Virus record (IMG/VR): IMGVR_UViG_3300024262_000229
Location: 1 to 24,456 of that record
Source of the DNA: a virus
DNA length: 24,456 nt
Strand: one strand, 5' to 3'
The notes beneath the pieces were generated by a model. It did not search any database. It saw only the letters and a program-made list of their open reading frames with translations, and was not told the DNA's origin. This document shows, piece by piece, positions 51-22,674 of the stretch. Made by a program: the position numbers and the translations under genes. The stretch's first letter is position 1; each line of letters opens with the position of its first letter.

Positions 51-79
51 ATTTTAGCGTAAGTTTGTTGTTTTGTCAA
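51..79 (-). promoter_or_regulatory. Sigma70-type promoter, leftward
   Basis: On the minus strand, TTGACA (79-74), a 17-base spacer and TAAAAT (56-51). Predicted +1 is near 44, giving a leader of about 6 bases before the ATG at 38. The -35 box contains the TGA stop (78-76) of the upstream dpdA-like gene. Confidence 0.75.
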
Positions 80-780
80 GCGGAATGTAATAATTCTAAT
101 TCTTTCTCCAATTTAGAAAAGTAACCTATTGTGTTTTTAAATTTTTCATAAACTGTCATTCCTTCTTTTGGATGAACCTGTTTGCCATTTTCATCTAAAA
201 TTCTTCCAACCTTTTGGGCGCACAACCATGTTGTAGAATCAACACTATAAAAAGGAAACTGTTTAATAATACTTGAATCCGTTACTCCCAATCCATGAAA
301 TTTATGATCAGGAAATCGAGAAAAAACACAATTAAAAAAATCTACTCTAACGCTTCTTTTTGATCCAACCGTCCCGCCCAAACATATATATTCGTATTTT
401 TCGATTAATTCATCTAAATGTTTCATATCTGAATTTAAGTGAAAAACCGGAATAGGAGAAGCTCCGAACCCTTCCATCCTCAACTGATTCTCTTTTGTTT
501 TTAAAGGATCTCCTATCCTGTCCAAATTTATATAGTTTTTAATATCGTGTTTTAACAAAAAACTAAAATATTCTTCTGGACATATTTCTATACCTCTATT
601 ATGCAGGGAAAAAGCTCCGCTATCAAAAAGAATTTCAAACCCCATCTCCTTAAATCGAGGCATTTGCTTATTATAAGATTTTGCTTCTGCGAACGTCAAC
701 ATTAATTTGTTCGCACCAAAATCCCTTAAATAATCTAACCTTTTTTTATTGCCCGAAATCCCCGCAAAGTATATTTTCAT
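76..780 (-). CDS. dpdA: DpdA-like DNA guanine transglycosylase (7-deazaguanine insertion)
   Basis: This is a 234-residue protein related to the tRNA-guanine transglycosylase superfamily. Phage and bacterial DpdA proteins exchange guanine in DNA for preQ0 or a derivative. Visible supports are FDSGAFSL (Asp53), which matches the TGT DSGGFQ catalytic segment, and YSVDSTTW (Asp181), which fits the second catalytic Asp. I do not see a clear TGT CxCxxC...H zinc site, and the protein is shorter than tRNA TGTs (about 370 residues). It is the last gene of a preQ0 cassette. Its ATG at 780 lies 35 bases inside the preceding DUF6884 gene, so translation is probably coupled. Family assignment comes from motif plus operon context; the DNA substrate is inferred. 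Confidence 0.8.
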   Translation of the reverse strand: MKIYFAGISGNKKRLDYLRDFGANKLMLTFAEAKSYNKQMPRFKEMGFEILFDSGAFSLHNRGIEICPEEYFSFLLKHDIKNYINLDRIGDPLKTKENQLRMEGFGASPIPVFHLNSDMKHLDELIEKYEYICLGGTVGSKRSVRVDFFNCVFSRFPDHKFHGLGVTDSSIIKQFPFYSVDSTTWLCAQKVGRILDENGKQVHPKEGMTVYEKFKNTIGYFSKLEKELELLHSA

Positions 781-1180
781 ATTTTAAATCTCTTAATCTC
801 TCTCCTATTCCCCTGCTCCCAAACGGCAAACTGTATTCTATTGAGTTTTCCTCAAACAGTTTAATTAAATTCTCGTAATAGTTTTTGCCGCAATAAAAAT
901 CGAAAACAACACCTTTTTTAATTTTGTCAATTTGGTTAAAAACCATTTTTGCCCAATCCTCCCTCTCTTTTTTTGTCATGGAGTTCAGCGTTAGATCATA
1001 ATTACTTATTTCTTGGTCTAGCTCCAATAAACCAAACTTAGCGGATAACACATAAATTTGAGAATATCTTTTTTCGCAAAAGGTTAATGTTTTTAAAAAA
1101 AGATCTGAGCAATAAACCTTTCTCGTTAGAGTTTCTTCGTTATTCTTGTTTTTGCAGCAAGAAATTAATGCGACTCTCAT
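746..1180 (-). CDS. DUF6884-family protein next to dpdA
   Basis: The protein has 144 residues and starts MRVALISCCKNK. Further blocks are VLSAKFGLLELDQEISNYDLTL (around residues 44-65) and a Gly/Tyr-rich segment near DFYCGKNYYENL. This pattern (small Cys/Lys-rich start, LSAKxGLL, pYDxTL) is what I know as DUF6884, a family of unknown biochemical role found in phages and bacteria. The ATG overlaps the folE stop (ATGA, 1180/1177), and its 3' end overlaps dpdA by 35 bases, so it is locked into the modification cassette. A role in preparing, transferring or recognising the 7-deazaguanine base is an inference from position only. Confidence 0.65.
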   Translation of the reverse strand: MRVALISCCKNKNNEETLTRKVYCSDLFLKTLTFCEKRYSQIYVLSAKFGLLELDQEISNYDLTLNSMTKKEREDWAKMVFNQIDKIKKGVVFDFYCGKNYYENLIKLFEENSIEYSLPFGSRGIGERLRDLKYENILCGDFGQ

Positions 1181-1707
1181 TTCGCTAATTGTAAAAACTC
1201 ATTTCTGCAAGACGGATCGTTTTTAAATACACCCTTCAGACAACTCGTTGTTGTCCAGATTTCATTTTTTCTAACGCCCCTCATCTCCATGCACGTATGT
1301 CTGGCTTTCAATAAAACAGCAACGCCTTTTGGTTCTAAGTTCTCGTTTAAAAAATCGGCAACCTGCATTGTTATTCTTTCTTGATTTTGCAATTTTCTTG
1401 AAAAAGTTTCTAAACATCTTGCCAACTTAGACAATCCTGCAATCTTTTTGTCTGGAATATACGCTATTACCCCGTAACCAAAAAACGGCGCACAATGATG
1501 TTCGCAAAGAGACTGGAACGAAATCGCCGACTCTATAATCATTTCATCATACCCCTCCGAATCAAACGTTGTAAAATTAAATTCTGGAGGCGAAAGAAAT
1601 TCTTTCAAGAAATTGACATATCTTTTAGGGGTTTCCAACAAACCCTCTCTCTCGACATCTTCGCCAAGATCTTTAAGTATTGATTTAAAATTTTCTTCTG
1701 AATTCAT
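1177..1707 (-). CDS. folE: GTP cyclohydrolase I
   Basis: The protein has 176 residues and should convert GTP to 7,8-dihydroneopterin triphosphate, the first step of 7-deazaguanine (and folate) synthesis. Zinc-site motifs are intact: SLCEHHCAPFFG (Cys68, His70, His71) and ARHTCMEMRGV (Cys139). Length fits phage FolE proteins. The start overlaps the queE stop as ATGA. The end of queE supplies AGGAGG three bases before this ATG, one of the few clear Shine-Dalgarno sequences in the window. The position between queE and the DUF6884/dpdA pair indicates it feeds preQ0 synthesis rather than folate. Confidence 0.93.
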   Translation of the reverse strand: MNSEENFKSILKDLGEDVEREGLLETPKRYVNFLKEFLSPPEFNFTTFDSEGYDEMIIESAISFQSLCEHHCAPFFGYGVIAYIPDKKIAGLSKLARCLETFSRKLQNQERITMQVADFLNENLEPKGVAVLLKARHTCMEMRGVRKNEIWTTTSCLKGVFKNDPSCRNEFLQLAK

Positions 1708-2354
1708 TTTCCTCCTAATGGCACTTCTTGTTTTGTATTTTTGTCTTCTTGATCAACAAGAAAAAGTTTATGTAATTGGTATCCCGCTCTAAAATTTAGA
1801 TTATTTTTAACAATTTCGTTGATTTTTTTTAAAACATCTTTGTCATTTCTTTTCGACCACTCTGGATTTAACCAAACCGTTTCCTTTTCCAAAATTTCTG
1901 GAAATTCGTTTAACCAAAATCTCACCGAATCTTCGTCCTCTACAATCAATTTAATTTCATTAGCTCTTTTAATATTTTCTTTAGTTGGGTTTTTTGATCT
2001 TTTTGGGGAAACTGTTATCCAATCAAAATCTCCTTTTATTTTAAATGATCCCGAAGTTTCTAGATGAACTGGTCTATCTTTTTTATTTGTAAATTCCGAC
2101 CAATCAAAAATTGTAGGTTCTCCACCCGTGATTACATAAAAATTAAAAACCTTGCCTTTGGTTAGATTTAGAATTTCTTCTGAATCTAATTTTTCTATAA
2201 ATTCAGGAATATAGTTTTTGCTCCACGTTCCGGCTGAATCGCACCAAGGGCATTTTAGTGGGCAACCGTAAGTTCTAATGAAATATGCTGATCTTCCAGA
2301 ATGAACGCCTTCTCCCTGCCATGCGTAAAAATGTTCATAAATTGGATACTTCAT
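1704..2354 (-). CDS. queE: 7-carboxy-7-deazaguanine synthase (radical SAM)
   Basis: QueE converts 6-carboxytetrahydropterin to 7-carboxy-7-deazaguanine. The chosen start at 2354 gives 216 residues beginning MKYPIYEHFYAWQGEG, the usual QueE opening. An upstream ATG at 2390 would add 12 residues unlike the family and overlap queD by 56 bases instead of 20. The radical-SAM cluster motif is CPLKCPWC (Cys31, Cys35, Cys38, spacing CX3CX2C). It is followed by a YVITGGEPTIF glycine-rich SAM-binding segment. It is co-directional and overlapping with queD and folE. Confidence 0.92.
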   Translation of the reverse strand: MKYPIYEHFYAWQGEGVHSGRSAYFIRTYGCPLKCPWCDSAGTWSKNYIPEFIEKLDSEEILNLTKGKVFNFYVITGGEPTIFDWSEFTNKKDRPVHLETSGSFKIKGDFDWITVSPKRSKNPTKENIKRANEIKLIVEDEDSVRFWLNEFPEILEKETVWLNPEWSKRNDKDVLKKINEIVKNNLNFRAGYQLHKLFLVDQEDKNTKQEVPLGGK

Positions 2355-2763
2355 ATTTTGCTGAATTCTTTTCGTCCTCCCAAATTTCAATTGAATTTAT
2401 TTTTACCCTATCTCCAATCTCTTTTTTAACAAGTTCGCTAAAAACTTCAAAAATTAATTTGCATAACCCTTCGCAAGAACAGTCTTCTACAACTAATAAT
2501 TTAAATAAATTTTTATCAAAATAATCAAGTTTTGGGTCTTCTTTATTTATTAAACAAGCGTGATCTAAATTTTCATCAATCCATTTCTTGAGAAACTTGA
2601 GTTTTCCGAAATCAACTACAAAATTATTTTCATCTCGCTCATCGCAACAAAATGTAATCCTGATTGACCAGTTATGCCCATGAATATAAGAGCAATGACC
2701 AATATGGTTATGTTGTCTATGCGCGAACGGTATATCTTTATAAATTTTTGAACATGTAATCAT
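2335..2763 (-). CDS. queD: 6-carboxy-5,6,7,8-tetrahydropterin synthase
   Basis: A 142-residue member of the 6-pyruvoyl-tetrahydropterin synthase fold. QueD turns dihydroneopterin triphosphate into 6-carboxytetrahydropterin. Zinc and catalytic residues are visible: His15 in PFAHRQH, Cys24 in GHCSY, and His28/His30 in IHGHNW. A conserved acidic SIEIWED segment lies near the C-terminus. The ATG overlaps the queC stop (ATGA), and the gene ends 20 bases inside queE. Confidence 0.92.
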   Translation of the reverse strand: MITCSKIYKDIPFAHRQHNHIGHCSYIHGHNWSIRITFCCDERDENNFVVDFGKLKFLKKWIDENLDHACLINKEDPKLDYFDKNLFKLLVVEDCSCEGLCKLIFEVFSELVKKEIGDRVKINSIEIWEDEKNSAKYEVSNL

Positions 2764-3413
2764 TTTTCGTATAATGTGTTGTCTTTTACTCCTGAAAGTT
2801 GTAATGCCTCAATTCTCTCTACGCATGTTCCACATTTTCCGCAATGTATTTCCTGCCCCTTGTAGCACGACCAAGTTTTTTCAATCTCAACATTAAGTTC
2901 TCCAGCTAATTTCGCAATATCAGTCTTTGATTTATTTACAAATGGTCTAATAACTTTTACAGGATGCCAATCAGCTAACTCTGCTGCTTGAGAAACGCAT
3001 TCAGCAAACTCTTCTCGACAATCTGGATAAATAGCATGATCTCCATTATGAGCTGCATAAGCAACATTATCAAATTTTTCATTAATTGCCCATCCAATAG
3101 CTAGTGAAAGCATAATCATGTTCCTATTTGGAACTACAGTCGCCTTCATGCTTTCCTCTTCGTAATGACCTTCGGGAACTTCCTGATCGGAAGTTAAGGA
3201 GCTAGACGATATAAGTTTTGTTATTCCAGAAAGATCAATACATTCGTGTTTGACATCTAGTTTTTTGCAAAAGTATTCAGCCGCACAAAGTTCTTTTTTA
3301 TGTTTTTGCCCATAATTTATAGACAAACATTTTACTTGATGACCTTTCGCGATCAAGTCGTAAAGAAGCGTTGTTGAATCCAATCCTCCTGAATAAATTA
3401 AAATAGTTTTCAT
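2760..3413 (-). CDS. queC: 7-cyano-7-deazaguanine (preQ0) synthase
   Basis: QueC makes preQ0 from 7-carboxy-7-deazaguanine, ATP and ammonia. The start at 3413 gives 217 residues beginning MKTILIYSGGLDSTT, the canonical N-terminus with the PP-loop SGGLDS at residues 8-13. A longer frame reaches 3446, but it would begin inside the promoter -35 box and adds residues atypical for QueC. Other family marks are VPNRNM, the AAHNGDHAIYPDCR segment, and a C-terminal Cys cluster (CYKGQEIHCGKCGTC) that binds zinc. The gene is plain QueC, without a fused amidotransferase-like Gat domain. It is the first gene of the six-gene cassette. Confidence 0.94.
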   Translation of the reverse strand: MKTILIYSGGLDSTTLLYDLIAKGHQVKCLSINYGQKHKKELCAAEYFCKKLDVKHECIDLSGITKLISSSSLTSDQEVPEGHYEEESMKATVVPNRNMIMLSLAIGWAINEKFDNVAYAAHNGDHAIYPDCREEFAECVSQAAELADWHPVKVIRPFVNKSKTDIAKLAGELNVEIEKTWSCYKGQEIHCGKCGTCVERIEALQLSGVKDNTLYEK

Positions 3414-3418
3414 TCTTA

Positions 3419-3446
3419 AATGTAACATGTTTTCTGGTTTTGTCAA
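3419..3446 (-). promoter_or_regulatory. Promoter of the preQ0 cassette, leaderless
   Basis: Minus strand: TTGACA (3446-3441), a 16-base spacer, and TACATT (3424-3419, four of six consensus bases). The queC ATG lies 6 bases past the -10 box, so the transcript should start at or next to the start codon. The TGA stop of the upstream gene (3445-3443) is inside the -35 box. Confidence 0.6.
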
Positions 3447-5062: not shown

Positions 5063-5274
5063 AACCGCCCTTCTTCTTTAAATCTTAACAATACTTCGTT
5101 AGAAATTCTCTGTCCGTCGTAGGTTAAATGTCTCAAAACATTATCGTCAAATCCTATTAAATATAAAAAATTATAAGGCGCGATTACCAACTTAGACAAT
5201 TCAAAAGCCGTAATATCTTCTAGCGGGTCAAGAATTAGTGTGCGGATTTTTTCTGGTTTCTTTTTAAAGAACAT
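5059..5274 (-). CDS. Small unknown protein (71 aa)
   Basis: Begins MFFKKKPEKIRTLILD and ends LRFKEEGRL. There is no recognisable domain and no membrane segment. It starts two bases after the recA-like stop and overlaps the following 55-residue gene as ATGA, so it belongs to the recA operon. Confidence 0.65.
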   Translation of the reverse strand: MFFKKKPEKIRTLILDPLEDITAFELSKLVIAPYNFLYLIGFDDNVLRHLTYDGQRISNEVLLRFKEEGRL

Positions 5275-5276
5275 AA

Positions 5277-6395
5277 TTACTCCTCTGTAAACATTTTAAG
5301 AAACTTCTTGTAAAGAAAATCTACGATTTCCGGATTCTGCTCAAGCCAATCTTTAAGTTTTGCGTCACCCTGAACTTGAAATGTATCTTCAATATCAAAT
5401 CCGCCAGTTTTTAAATCTGCCAAAAGATCTGGTGAAAAAGAAAGCCACGAACCTCTTTTTTCTACAAGCTCCCACTGAATAAGAAGATCTGCGATTTCCT
5501 TTTCAAGCCAAACAGACTTTCCTCCTTTCATTCTATGCCTAACTGGATATTCTACACGAACATCAATCTTTTCGTCAAGACCCTTGCTAACATCGATACA
5601 GCAATAATGTCCAATAATCTTTCCCTTTTCTTCGATATTTTTACTTTTACTTCTTCCTCTAAGGCTCCAAACCTGATTTGCGGCATGAATTGTGGCATTA
5701 GCCCCGCCTTTTCCTACTGAATCGTTGGGATTTGCCGCTTCGTATTGATTGATTTTTGGATGCGCCCGAACTTGATCTAGAACAAAAAGACAATGCCCTA
5801 ATTTGTTTAATCTTAAGTTAATCTTCTTAAAGAGGTTGGATGACAATGTTCCTGCTGCTGCTACTTTTTCTCCTTCTCCTACGCTCTTTTCAATATCATC
5901 TTTTCGGATAAGGCAATCAATGGAATCAATCCCCATGAAGTAAACGTTTTTATCAGGATTTTCTTTTGTCAACCTGTGGATTGCATCAAAAGCAACCTCG
6001 AAAACATTTGTTTCAAAAACAAAGCAAGTTCCGTAATCCCATTCTTCCGCTGAATAAACGAATTTAAGCGCCGTTCTTGCTTTTACTTTTTCATCAAGCC
6101 TTCCTTCGGGAACAATCCAAAATCCTTTTGATTTTGGAACTGTTTCAAGGCCATTTTTGATACATCCTAAAGACAGGTGAGTTTTCCCCGCGCTACTCGC
6201 CCCACAAACCTTATAAGCCCCCGGACCAAAACCGCCACCTTGAGCCGAGTCAAATAAAAGCGATCCTGTTGATACAGTCCAAGACACTTGTTTTTCAAAG
6301 TTTAAGTGGTCTGCTTTTGTTTCTTTTAGAAAACCTTGTAGCAACAATTTAGAATTGTCCTGACCTTCTACTTCTTCTGATTTTTGTTTTGCCAT
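5277..6395 (-). CDS. recA: RecA/UvsX-type recombinase
   Basis: A 372-residue DNA strand-exchange ATPase. Walker A is GASSAGKT (residues 65-72). Walker B is the hydrophobic strand VYFMGIDS (151-158, Asp157). An LFVLDQVRAHP strand matches the segment before loop L2, and KGGANATIHAANQVW fits the L2 DNA-binding region. The short N-terminus and divergent C-terminus look more like phage UvsX than host RecA. No Shine-Dalgarno is visible; the ATG follows the previous stop by three bases in A/T-rich sequence. Role: recombination-dependent replication and repair of phage DNA. Confidence 0.88.
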   Translation of the reverse strand: MAKQKSEEVEGQDNSKLLLQGFLKETKADHLNFEKQVSWTVSTGSLLFDSAQGGGFGPGAYKVCGASSAGKTHLSLGCIKNGLETVPKSKGFWIVPEGRLDEKVKARTALKFVYSAEEWDYGTCFVFETNVFEVAFDAIHRLTKENPDKNVYFMGIDSIDCLIRKDDIEKSVGEGEKVAAAGTLSSNLFKKINLRLNKLGHCLFVLDQVRAHPKINQYEAANPNDSVGKGGANATIHAANQVWSLRGRSKSKNIEEKGKIIGHYCCIDVSKGLDEKIDVRVEYPVRHRMKGGKSVWLEKEIADLLIQWELVEKRGSWLSFSPDLLADLKTGGFDIEDTFQVQGDAKLKDWLEQNPEIVDFLYKKFLKMFTEE

Positions 6396-6398
6396 AAT

Positions 6399-6638
6399 TT
6401 AATTAATACATACTGCGTTCAATTCATCTTCTGAATCGCCCATTTCTTCTTTCCATTCATTAAATTCTTCTTTATCAAAAAATGTCTCTTGATCTTTAAA
6501 TAAATGTCCAAAGGATGCTCCGCAAATTTTTACATATTTGCCTATTTGATATTCATAGTGAATGACATCACTGTCTTTTGCCTCTGGATTCTCCTTAACC
6601 AATTCGTTAAGGCCGTTAATATATTCTTCTAGTGTCAT
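6399..6638 (-). CDS. Small acidic unknown protein (79 aa)
   Basis: The start at 6638 (MTLEEYINGLNELVKENPEA) is chosen because its ATG overlaps the preceding stop as ATGA; a longer frame to 6686 would overlap by 52 bases. The protein is acidic, with a Cys-containing KICGASFGH segment and an FNEWKEEMGDSEDE tail. Function unknown. It lies directly upstream of the RecA-like gene, with a three-base gap. Confidence 0.65.
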   Translation of the reverse strand: MTLEEYINGLNELVKENPEAKDSDVIHYEYQIGKYVKICGASFGHLFKDQETFFDKEEFNEWKEEMGDSEDELNAVCIN

Positions 6639-7128: not shown

Positions 7129-7169
7129 GTCTTTTTTGCTGCATGGGGTAATGAAGTGTGAAAATAAGT

Positions 7170-7733
7170 ATGGAATCCAAATCCCCTCAATCAAAAGGTG
7201 GTGCCGCTACTGGCGCAATTTTAAGAAAAAATGCAATAGAAAAATACATGATAAATCCAAACTATTGTCTTTTTTGTCACTCGATTATTCTTATAAAAGA
7301 CGGACAAAAACCAGCAGATGTAAGAGTAAAAAAATTTTGTGGACATTCTTGCTCTGCTAAATTTTCAAATTCAAAAAGATGGGCTAATCGTCAAAAAGAA
7401 GAGAAGCCAAAAAGAACACCCAGAACGCCAATAACAATAATTGACCGTTATAAAAACTTAACCAAGGTAGAACTTTTTGGAAAAAGTAAAAACTGGCAAT
7501 CTGCGCGATCACAAATATGCAAACATGCCAAAGCCGTTAAACCTTTAAAATCTCCTTGCCATAACTGCGGTTATAGTCATCATACAGAATTATGTCACAT
7601 TAAATCTGTTTCATCTTTTCCTGATGACTCTTTAATTGAAGAGATAAACGAAGAAGCTAATTTAGTTTACCTTTGTCCAAATTGTCATTGGGAGTTTGAC
7701 CATCAATTGTTGACTCTAATCGAACTCATCTAA
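7170..7733 (+). CDS. HNH endonuclease, probably a free-standing homing enzyme
   Basis: A 187-residue protein on the opposite strand to all its neighbours. The N-terminal half has Cys pairs (CLFCHS and CGHSC) that suggest a zinc ribbon. The C-terminal half is an HNH nuclease: CHNCGYSHHTELCHIK, then NLVYLCPNCHWEFDH, with paired CxxC knuckles around the His-Asn-His core. ATG 7170 is used; a GTG at 7158 would add four residues. Its 3' end overlaps the convergent dehydratase gene by 18 bases. Solitary, inverted HNH genes in phages are often homing endonucleases; that role is inferred. Confidence 0.82.
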   Translation: MESKSPQSKGGAATGAILRKNAIEKYMINPNYCLFCHSIILIKDGQKPADVRVKKFCGHSCSAKFSNSKRWANRQKEEKPKRTPRTPITIIDRYKNLTKVELFGKSKNWQSARSQICKHAKAVKPLKSPCHNCGYSHHTELCHIKSVSSFPDDSLIEEINEEANLVYLCPNCHWEFDHQLLTLIELI

Positions 7734-8983: not shown

Positions 8984-9838
8984 TTAAATCCACCAGTCAA
9001 GAACAAACTCTGGTCGTCCATCAAAATTCGGCTCATCAACAGACAAATCTGGACACCTTTGTTGACTTACTCCTATACTATCACAAATCCTTTTATTGAC
9101 ATAAGTTAATTCCAAAGAATCTGGAAAATCAACATATCGCGGCGCATGATTATTCCCGTGAATATGAAAAAGATAGAAGTGTTGGTTTAGTTTCTTAAAG
9201 AAATCAACCTTCTTTTGTAGGTTATTTTTAGCGTCTTGAATCGCTGGTTCAATAATCCAATCATCAGGAGTTTCCTCAATTAACCCGTGAACTTCTAGCG
9301 TAAATTGGTCAAATTTATTAGCGAGGATTTCTAAATTTTCATCTGTGAACCAATTATATTCATTGCCTTCAATATCCATCTTAAGAATCAAGACATTCGG
9401 GCGCGAAATGCCCGACATATATCCATCTCCTAATAAATCGGCCACATGATCTTTAAAATTATCTGGAGTCAGATGCTCTTTAAAAAACAAGGCGCTATCT
9501 ACTGCTGCTGGTAATTCGTCAATCGAACCATCATACATATTGATGATTAGACTTTTTGCGCCAACCTCGCTTAATGACTGTTCAAATGAAACGCCTAACG
9601 GGTCGTCACCCACGCCATAAGACAATACTGAAATAGACTCGCCATAAAAATTATCATCATAAAACGCCAAGACGTAAGACCCATCTCCTTTTCCAAATTT
9701 CTTTTTTTCATATTTAACATCTGGTAAATAAATAAGGTTGTGTGGCACTAATTCTTTTTTAAGCGCCGCATATTTATTGGGATTATTTTCGTCAAAAAAG
9801 AGCATGTCATCAACATCTATAAGTAACGTCACTGCCAA
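8984..9838 (-). CDS. FkbM-like methyltransferase
   Basis: A 284-residue protein with a SAM-methyltransferase layout of the FkbM/Methyltransf_21 type. Blocks are SYGVGDDPLGVSFEQSL (SAM-binding glycine loop), a YDGS acidic turn, and the diagnostic ILKMDIEGNEYNWF. A terminal FHIHGNNHAPR block follows. Such enzymes O-methylate sugars or lipids; the substrate here is unknown, and the neighbours suggest a glycan. The gene overlaps the upstream 80-residue gene by 29 bases. Confidence 0.75.
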   Translation of the reverse strand: MAVTLLIDVDDMLFFDENNPNKYAALKKELVPHNLIYLPDVKYEKKKFGKGDGSYVLAFYDDNFYGESISVLSYGVGDDPLGVSFEQSLSEVGAKSLIINMYDGSIDELPAAVDSALFFKEHLTPDNFKDHVADLLGDGYMSGISRPNVLILKMDIEGNEYNWFTDENLEILANKFDQFTLEVHGLIEETPDDWIIEPAIQDAKNNLQKKVDFFKKLNQHFYLFHIHGNNHAPRYVDFPDSLELTYVNKRICDSIGVSQQRCPDLSVDEPNFDGRPEFVLDWWI

Positions 9839-20411: not shown

Positions 20412-20419
20412 TTTAAATT

Positions 20420-20453
20420 GAAAAGGGGCCAAGATTTCTCTGGACCCCTTTTC
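20420..20453 (-). terminator. Hairpin terminator after the 67-aa gene
   Basis: Minus strand: GAAAAGGGG ... CCCCTTTTC with a long stem (one G-U pair and one mismatch) capped by a GAAA tetraloop, ending in TTTTC. It looks functional for leftward transcription, though the T-run is short; the A-run on the other side could allow rightward termination. Confidence 0.7.
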
Positions 20454-20478
20454 TCGATTACGCTCGCAACTGGCAAGA

Positions 20479-20682
20479 TTAAACCGAAATCTTTACTTTA
20501 AAGGTTCGTGCTTGATCCTGACTCTGAGATGCGCTATAACCTCGTTGAAGATTATAAGCTAGATCTTGTTTGTTATCAGGAATCCCAATGCCTTGCTTTT
20601 TAGCAATAGTTTTGAGATCGTTACGGGTGAAACCCATCCAAGTAGATAGGTCAATGTTGTGGTTTGTGGTGCTTAGTTGCAT
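20479..20682 (-). CDS. Small protein (67 aa) in a single-gene unit
   Basis: Begins MQLSTTNHNIDLSTWMGFTR. The middle (FTRNDLKTIAKKQGIGIPDNKQDL) resembles a SAP- or Rho-N-like helix-turn motif for nucleic acid contact, but I cannot prove it. It has its own promoter, which puts +1 on the ATG, and a terminator 25 bases after the stop, so it is monocistronic. Function unknown. Confidence 0.65.
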   Translation of the reverse strand: MQLSTTNHNIDLSTWMGFTRNDLKTIAKKQGIGIPDNKQDLAYNLQRGYSASQSQDQARTFKVKISV

Positions 20683-21660: not shown

Positions 21661-21665
21661 AATTG

Positions 21666-21694
21666 AATTTATCACCTTTTATTGTTTTTGTCAA
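21666..21694 (-). promoter_or_regulatory. Leftward promoter of the main minus-strand block
   Basis: Minus strand: TTGACA (21694-21689), 17 bases, TAAATT (21671-21666). It faces away from the rightward promoter at 22310-22338 and begins leftward transcription at about 21659. Confidence 0.75.
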
Positions 21695-22309
21695 GTAATA
21701 TTTTCTGTTAATTTTCACTATTAATATATAAGCGATATTTCTACTACGTTTTTAAATCGCAGGTAGTTAATCTATTATTAATTGCCCGTTGCTCTGAACA
21801 GTTTCTTGCGAAACTGAATTTAAAAAGAAGAAGGTTCCCATTAATTAAATACCTAATCTGGAAAATCCCATTTTCCAGTAGCGAGCTTGCGAGCGACAAA
21901 GTGATAATTTGGGGATTATCACTTAAAAATTAGTTGAGCTAAAGCTCAAGTTATTTTAACCTCATAAGCCAAGGCTTATTCGTGCAGGTAATCAAAGACT
22001 CCGTTCGCTTCGCTCTCTTCGCGTATTGCTTACCTGATTTCTTTTTATTAATTTGTTAATTACAAGTCAACTACCACTAGCTACGCTCAAATTAGTTGAT
22101 TGAAGTCACGTTCGCTGCGCTCACATTTATAGATTAACTTATTTTTTGAAAAGGTCAAGATACGTAATCGCGCCATGCGCCCACAACCCTTGCTACGCCT
22201 GACTTGTGGCGGGCATTTATTTTTCATCTTGCTTGACAAATCAGCAGACAATCCTAGCAAAACCACAAAATATGGCGCAAAATATTTGAAATTAACCTTG
22301 AAAAACCAC
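21695..22309. other. Gene-free divergent region with hairpin array (possible origin/control)
   Basis: No convincing gene is seen. Perfect stems include 21799-21816 (7 bp), 21858-21878 (9 bp), 21899-21924 (10 bp), 21934-21949 and 21964-21979 (7 bp each). Wider inverted repeats are 21985-21991/22030-22036, 22067-22073/22093-22099 and 22181-22186/22204-22209, each with GCTTCGC or GCTACGC at its centre. Another GCTGCGC is at 22114-22120, and a GCGC/GCGC hairpin at 22170-22180. Divergent promoters flank the region. No DnaA-box cluster or tandem iteron array was seen. Replication or control functions are inferred. Confidence 0.55.
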
Positions 22310-22338
22310 TTGACTTTTCCTTCTTTATCTTATATAAT
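22310..22338 (+). promoter_or_regulatory. Consensus rightward promoter, leaderless mazG
   Basis: TTGACT (22310-22315), 17 bases, TATAAT (22333-22338). The ATG at 22345 is 7 bases past the -10, exactly where transcription should start; no Shine-Dalgarno is possible. Confidence 0.85.
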
Positions 22339-22344
22339 CCTGAT

Positions 22345-22674
22345 ATGAGTTTTATTACAGAATTTAATGCCGTGTCGCAAGACGTTTACCAAACCGCAAA
22401 AGACAAAGGTTGGTGGGATAACGAACGGAACGATGGAGAAATGATTGCATTAATGCACTCGGAACTCAGCGAGGCTCTTGAAGCATTGCGTCATGGAAAT
22501 CCACCAGACGACAAGATTCCAGAATTTACTGGAGTAGAGGCTGAATTAGCAGATGTTGTTATTCGTATTATGGATTATTCCGCCGCTAGAAACATGAAGG
22601 TTGGCGATGCTATTATAGCAAAAATTGAAATGAATAAAACTCGTGCAAAAATGCACGGCGGCAAGAAATTTTAA
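22345..22674 (+). CDS. mazG: MazG-like nucleoside triphosphate pyrophosphohydrolase
   Basis: A 109-residue single-domain MazG-type protein of the all-alpha NTP-PPase superfamily. It carries the metal-binding ExxE...ExxD signature (Glu40, Glu43, Glu67, Asp70) in ALMHSELSEALEALR and VEAELADVVIRIMD. Phage MazG may hydrolyse (d)NTPs or signal nucleotides to adjust the host nucleotide pool. It is the first gene of the rightward operon, under a consensus promoter with no leader. Length is typical for the short form. Confidence 0.88.
   Translation: MSFITEFNAVSQDVYQTAKDKGWWDNERNDGEMIALMHSELSEALEALRHGNPPDDKIPEFTGVEAELADVVIRIMDYSAARNMKVGDAIIAKIEMNKTRAKMHGGKKF

Follow-up and report, generated by a model that had tools for sequence, protein, structure and literature searches.

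The uncultivated tailed phage contig analyzed here (the window, a linear stretch of 24,456 bases, probably a fragment of a larger genome) carries an array of hairpins that is real and lineage-specific, and that lies within a divergent region controlling genes of nucleotide metabolism. The heptamer core of this array is part of a small hairpin repeat that bacteria and phages carry in dispersed copies. As to its use, control of transcription by way of a structured leader, a short RNA or terminators would be the most likely, with passive filling of the spacer as the main rival.

The divergent spacer and its promoters

The whole array sits inside an intergenic spacer of 682 bp (21663–22344) with no gene-sized ORF, the sole large divergent spacer of the window, with minus-strand genes on its left and plus-strand genes on its right. 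It is flanked by a minus-strand ORF with its start at 21662, encoding a 261-aa protein, after which come a 157-aa protein, a short protein and then nrdB and nrdA, and by a plus-strand ORF from 22345 encoding a MazG-like pyrophosphohydrolase, followed by an uncharacterised protein, a dNMP kinase and a sigma-70-family factor. The 261-aa left neighbour gave no family match, and the GenBank phages searched with the window DNA and with this neighbour gave no match either.

Outward-facing sigma-70-like promoters are found at both edges and are kept in the relatives. The left-facing promoter of the window (TTGACA-17-TAAATT, with TG before the –10 element; minus strand, 21666–21694) is a 10/12 match with a score of 10.3, and the right-facing one (TTGACT-17-TATAAT; plus strand, 22310–22338) is an 11/12 match whose –10 element ends 6 nt ahead of the ATG. 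Five spacers were compared, those of the window and of four contigs in three lineages (L096/L089; L086; L090), and in all five the left-facing promoter ends 3–16 nt ahead of its gene. Since in each lineage the right-facing –10 element ends only 5–6 nt from the first start codon, the dut or mazG mRNA is predicted to be probably leaderless (22333–22345 in the window, with equivalents in L086, L090, L096 and L089). The right-facing matches of L096, L089 and L090 are weak, their scores of 7.1–7.5 falling under the median best match among shuffles, so that in these contigs conservation at this edge is mainly one of position.

In the same three contigs the strongest promoter of the spacer is at the dut side and is directed through the array towards nrd, with scores of 13.3–14.4 where the 95% point of the null is near 10. 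Within the window spacer the nrd-facing matches are weak (the best, 6.9, falls below the null), and L086 is likewise without a convincing internal promoter. The plus strand of the window has a 9/12 promoter match ending at 21778, which together with the closing of a fold near ATTTATTTTT is suggestive, and no more, of an RNA unit.

Heptamers, hairpins and folding of the spacer

The four GCTNCGC heptamers reported by the first-pass annotation (22007, 22080, 22114 and 22192) are all on the plus strand and all within the 682-bp spacer, where 0.27 would be expected; none of 2000 dinucleotide shuffles reaches four, and about 0.3% do so once every GC-rich heptamer class is allowed for. Across the whole window there are 8, against 3.6 expected. 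Three of the four had been described as centres of wider inverted repeats, which is correct for two of them: GCTACGC at 22080–22086 is the symmetric centre of the 7-bp repeat TCAACTA...TAGTTGA (22067–22099), and that at 22192 of the 6-bp repeat CCACAA-5-GCTACGC-5-TTGTGG (22181–22209), whereas GCTTCGC at 22007–22013 is enclosed by CAGGTAA...TTACCTG (21985–22036) with unequal spacers of 15 and 16 nt. The exact 5-base spacing also claimed is seen at 22192, and at 22080 it measures 6 nt, or 5 nt with an additional A-T pair included in the arms. For two of four heptamers to have symmetric arms of 6 bp or more, P is about 8e-5. The perfect stem immediately around each heptamer is only 2–3 bp long, and the heptamer-centred hairpins, compared with shuffles, have DNA fold z values of –0.64, –1.49, –1.60 and +1.45, with no extra stability. 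The mini-hairpin d(GCGAAGC) is known through structural work; the window cores resemble it in reading GCGNAGC on the minus strand, and differ from it in that nearest-neighbour folding gives them no excess stability, so that in the duplex context of the spacer it would be a putative structure.

The further hairpins, of which at least six had been noted, were recovered: the spacer has six perfect stems of 6 bp or more where 1.43 would be expected, a number that none of 200 shuffles attains, and this excess has no equal in any other spacer of the window. Perfect hairpins are located at 21799–21816 (CAGTTTC-ttgc-GAAACTG), 21858–21878 (CTGGAAAAT-ccc-ATTTTCCAG), 21899–21924 (AAGTGATAAT-ttgggg-ATTATCACTT), 21934–21949 (TTGAGC-taaa-GCTCAA) and 21964–21979 (ATAAGC-caag-GCTTAT). 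On the plus strand there are also a tandem-GA hairpin-like element, GTAGC-GA-GCTTGC-GA-GCGAC (21878–21897), with the 14-mer GCGAGCTTGCGAGC in common with L090, and, as a pattern match only, a terminator-like stem followed by ATTTATTTTT (22189–22224).

The window spacer folds with a z of –4.6 on the plus strand and –2.0 on the other, and the excess is located in 21784–22050, the part with three of the four heptamers (22040–22225) folding as RNA no better than shuffled sequence (z –0.85/+0.07). The plus-strand fold is closed by UGCCCG near 21783 with CGGGCA at about 22210–22215, just before ATTTATTTTT. Among nine control stretches the z was –1.8 to +0.7 in eight, and –3.7 on one strand in the ninth (20200). 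The array portions of the relatives have values of –4.1 to –6.7; both strands of L096 and L090 fold about equally well, as expected of plain palindromes, and in L086 the strand opposite to that of the window folds better. With such differences between the contigs, strand asymmetry was not decisive as a proof of RNA. Rfam, searched with the window and ten loci, returned nothing relevant and no known family; a sub-threshold match to the BjrC68 sRNA at 20415–20496 of the window (24.5 bits, gathering 39), partly within a small ORF, is probably due to chance.

The same junction in related phages

Searches with RecA and the 157-aa protein led to two close contigs, L084 and L098, probably of the same genus as the window phage, both of which end before the array, and a ribonucleotide reductase search led to L085–L090 and L096 (73–80% identity). 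L096/L089, L086/L087 and L090 have a divergent spacer with the 157-aa protein or nrdB on one side and dut on the other, and on the right dut, whose identity as dUTPase was confirmed, is followed by dNMP kinase or sigma genes. The window is unlike these relatives in having mazG in place of dut, a 261-aa gene inserted on the left and a spacer of 682 bp against 356–470 bp. The comparison with relatives called for by the first-pass annotation gave no support to its origin reading, as the array sequence of the window is absent from them; what they keep instead is position and style, that is, the same junction and sigma-70-like edge promoters with different inverted repeats. No 8-mer is common to the window, L086, L090 and L096 and no sequence can be aligned between lineages, the spacers compared being either near-identical or unalignable; the overlap of the window with L090 amounts to isolated pieces (GCGAGCTTGCGAGC, CGAAGAGAGC), and isolated pieces are also common to L096.

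The array of L096 and L089 terminates in ACGAGAAGAATGC...GCATTCTTCTCGT-TTTTTTT, a 13-bp stem with seven T, and this succession of promoter, array, stem and T is how a long leader or a short noncoding RNA would be laid out. Promoter, structure and terminator are thus found on one strand in L096 and L089, partly in L090 and not clearly in the window. TACGT is enriched in all five spacers, with 3 hits against 0.25 expected in the window, 11 against 0.59 in L096, 6 against 0.29 in L086 and 9 against 0.35 in L090; the three hits of the window, counted on both strands, fall in two places, one of them outside the heptamer half.

Some further features of these contigs may be recorded. At 9271–9360 of L096, and at the equivalent place of L089, the 14-bp sequence CGTATAGGTTACGT is repeated in tandem, one of the two contigs having six copies and its counterpart seven. 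G001, the contig of L090, has two further noncoding hairpin arrays at 689–1108 and 2026–2294 (L179), in which several hairpins recur in the same order and each of which closes with a strong G+C-rich or long stem, so that this is a duplicated array; an apparent 877-bp spacer of G001 was set aside, as by eye it resembles unrecognised coding sequence. The RecA-like gene of L084 (7829–10081) is a single ORF of 750 aa whose ends match the 372-aa RecA of the window and are separated by about 340 aa inserted in frame, a putative intein. The nrdA of L085 (10986–13715) and the nrdB of L097 (6578–8591) are each interrupted by about 1 kb, which suggests an intron, an intein or an insertion.

A dispersed hairpin motif and the use of the array

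On the minus strand, two of the four window heptamers belong to GAGCGNAGCGAAC; they are the copies of the dispersed motif GAGCGNAGCGA at 22003–22015 (GAGCGAAGCGAAC) and 22110–22122 (GAGCGCAGCGAAC). A pattern search for two cores within 40 bases found over 100 viral contigs and likewise over 100 of bacteria or archaea, the cores lying mostly in intergenic, low-GC positions. At 76 low-GC loci, with the stretches used for the search masked, there were 57 exact copies of GAGCGNAGCGA against 0–8 for each single substitution, and the sixth base was free among the exact copies (A 26, T 15, C 9, G 7), as would be expected because a GNA triloop predicts a free middle base. The loop is therefore conserved at 10 of 11 positions, the variable one being exactly the base left free in a GNA triloop. 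Individual bacterial genomes hold 760, 682, 155 and 127 copies, against 2, 91, 7 and 3 of the reversed control; among 60 Bacteroidota drawn evenly the totals are 712 and 361, a ratio of about 2, with several genomes above 10. Stems of at least 6 bp accompany 32 of 181 copies (4.1 expected), and adjoining stems of at least 4 bp accompany 8 of 47 unselected copies (1.2 expected). GAGCGNAGCGA thus occurs in many copies across genomes, the copies being hairpins, and it is often the loop of hairpins with differing arms, so that the loop is conserved and the arms are variable. The idea that the GNA-type cores are a genuine motif was borne out in this way, with GAGCGNAGCGA acting outside the window as a conserved hairpin loop with a free middle base, and that of a designed array became doubtful because many bacteria and other phages carry the same core in dispersed copies.

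There are bounds to this distribution. GAGCGNAGCGA is not enriched in the protein-selected relatives of the phage, GCGNAGC or GNA triloops show no general enrichment in related phages, and the copies have neither a preference for divergent spacers nor a consistent strand bias relative to adjoining genes. Bacteria carry dispersed small palindromic repeats, REP-like in a broad sense. The likeness to them consists in a short hairpin motif, mostly intergenic and in hundreds of copies in some genomes, and the difference in a conserved loop with varying arms and in the presence of only two copies in the phage contig. A literature search with the letters of the motif found no name or description of GAGCGNAGCGA. 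From nucleic-acid chemistry, stem-GA-GC-GNA-GC-GA-stem is a geometry in which tandem sheared G-A pairs could form beneath a GNA triloop. It is doubtful, although conceivable, that GAGCGNAGCGA defines an apparently unnamed hairpin family of bacteria and phages, in which variable arms lead through a tandem G-A/A-G mismatch and two G-C pairs to a GNA triloop, and whose single-strand shape is kept and used in phage control spacers. A loop conserved in this way, spread over several phyla and their viruses, would allow a direct test of whether the shape of a small DNA or RNA hairpin is read by cells or phages. A T4-like phage contig (L221; genes assigned by eye) has at 5070–6505 a 1.4-kb noncoding stretch with many hairpins and several copies of GAGCGNAGCGA beside a uvsW-like gene.

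The reading to which we give about an even chance takes the spacer for a divergent control region, flanked by two operons for DNA building blocks and with a fast-changing, probably transcribed filling of hairpins. The left operon, in the arrangement of the relatives, would be that of the ribonucleotide reductase genes nrdB-nrdA, and the right one that of dUTPase or the MazG-like pyrophosphohydrolase, followed by the dNMP kinase and the sigma-like factor, each served by a predicted sigma-70-like promoter at the spacer edge that nearly touches the start codon. Between these promoters, the inverted-repeat filling with its fast sequence turnover, which in the window includes, besides two copies of the dispersed motif with its GNA-loop hairpin, two heptamers related to it, would most likely act after transcription, as a structured leader or a short noncoding RNA and as terminators separating the two operons, position and structure being kept while the sequence of the filling changes. 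The recurrence of the same junction with a divergent spacer in four other contigs of three lineages argues for control, as do the placing of the edge promoters in all five spacers, the strong nrd-facing promoter of L096, L089 and L090, the stem with seven T of L096 and L089, the failure of sequences to align between lineages and folding far better than shuffles in all spacers (z –4.1 to –6.7; –4.6 on the window plus strand), and the back-to-back promoters at both edges of a noncoding spacer are those of divergent phage operon spacers with sigma-70 promoters, from which this one differs in an interior of inverted repeats, 4–7 SD above shuffles, with no sequence common to relatives. Against it, both strands of L096 and L090 fold alike, as plain palindromes do, neither the window nor L086 has a convincing internal promoter, and the left neighbour of the array in the window is the 261-aa protein and not nrd. 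With modest weight, the window spacer illustrates a control spacer that keeps its place and its hairpin style while its sequence turns over. The main rival, somewhat improbable in our estimate, holds that only the edge promoters matter and that tolerant noncoding DNA has accumulated small dispersed palindromic repeats, as in bacterial genomes, the hairpins serving themselves or nothing. The dispersal of GAGCGNAGCGA far above its reversed control in some bacteria (760 against 2), the over 100 viral contigs in which two copies of this type lie near each other, mostly in intergenic DNA, and the failure of relatives to keep the array sequence speak for it, but a hairpin-rich spacer is kept at the junction in all four lineages while most other window spacers are not hairpin-rich, and the dispersed motif is present in only two of the many hairpins of the window.

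A replication origin, in which hairpins and AT-rich flanks would serve strand opening and the binding of an initiator or primase, is unlikely. The iteron-like tandem 14-bp repeats of L096 and L089, six or seven with varying copy number, the excess of TACGT common to all five spacers and the lowest point of the cumulative skew, near 22 kb, speak for it; the GC-skew check proposed earlier, however, gave a flip at 22 kb that follows gene direction, because coding-strand skew is positive for the genes of either strand, and the skew of the window tracks the coding strand on both sides of the spacer and around the lone plus-strand gene at 7158–7733, which locally weakens it. The window spacer has no DnaA-box-like site and no iterons or tandem repeats, no initiator gene was recognised adjoining it, and its array sequence is missing in relatives, so the origin is unsupported. 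Still less probable is an array of sites at which a phage or host regulator would bind double-stranded DNA and act on both promoters through a shared operator containing TACGT: this pentamer is in excess in the spacers of the window, L096, L086 and L090, and two heptamers have symmetric spacers of 5–6 nt, but TACGT occurs at just two places in the window spacer, one of them beyond the heptamer half, a NrdR-box match is absent from the spacer and the only regulator gene identified is the sigma-like factor. The least credible reading, to which we attach hardly any weight, is that of N4-type hairpin promoters serving an injected virion RNA polymerase, as in Schitoviridae. The stem of an N4 promoter has a lower bound of 5 bp (range 5–7), and all four window cores have contiguous stems of only 2–3 bp. 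N4 early promoters share with the window a GC-rich heptamer of GCGNAGC type flanked by inverted repeats, with a 3-base loop that contains a sheared G-A pair, and they require a purine at the loop centre (–11) and have a stem of up to 7 bp (PMC4496689). In the window the centres on the GNA strand are A, T, C and T, a purine in one of four, and on this and on stem length the N4-type promoter was rejected; moreover, the genes already have sigma-70-like promoters at the spacer edges, and the ten larger proteins tested from G001, the nearest large relative contig (contigs may be incomplete), gave no RNA polymerase family match, its 1939-aa protein being a tape measure protein.

Apart from the spacer, the window holds at 76–3446 a run of genes that by eye resemble folE, queE, queD and queC, together with a queuine tRNA-ribosyltransferase-like gene (PHROG match), and these may possibly serve a 7-deazaguanine modification of DNA or tRNA.
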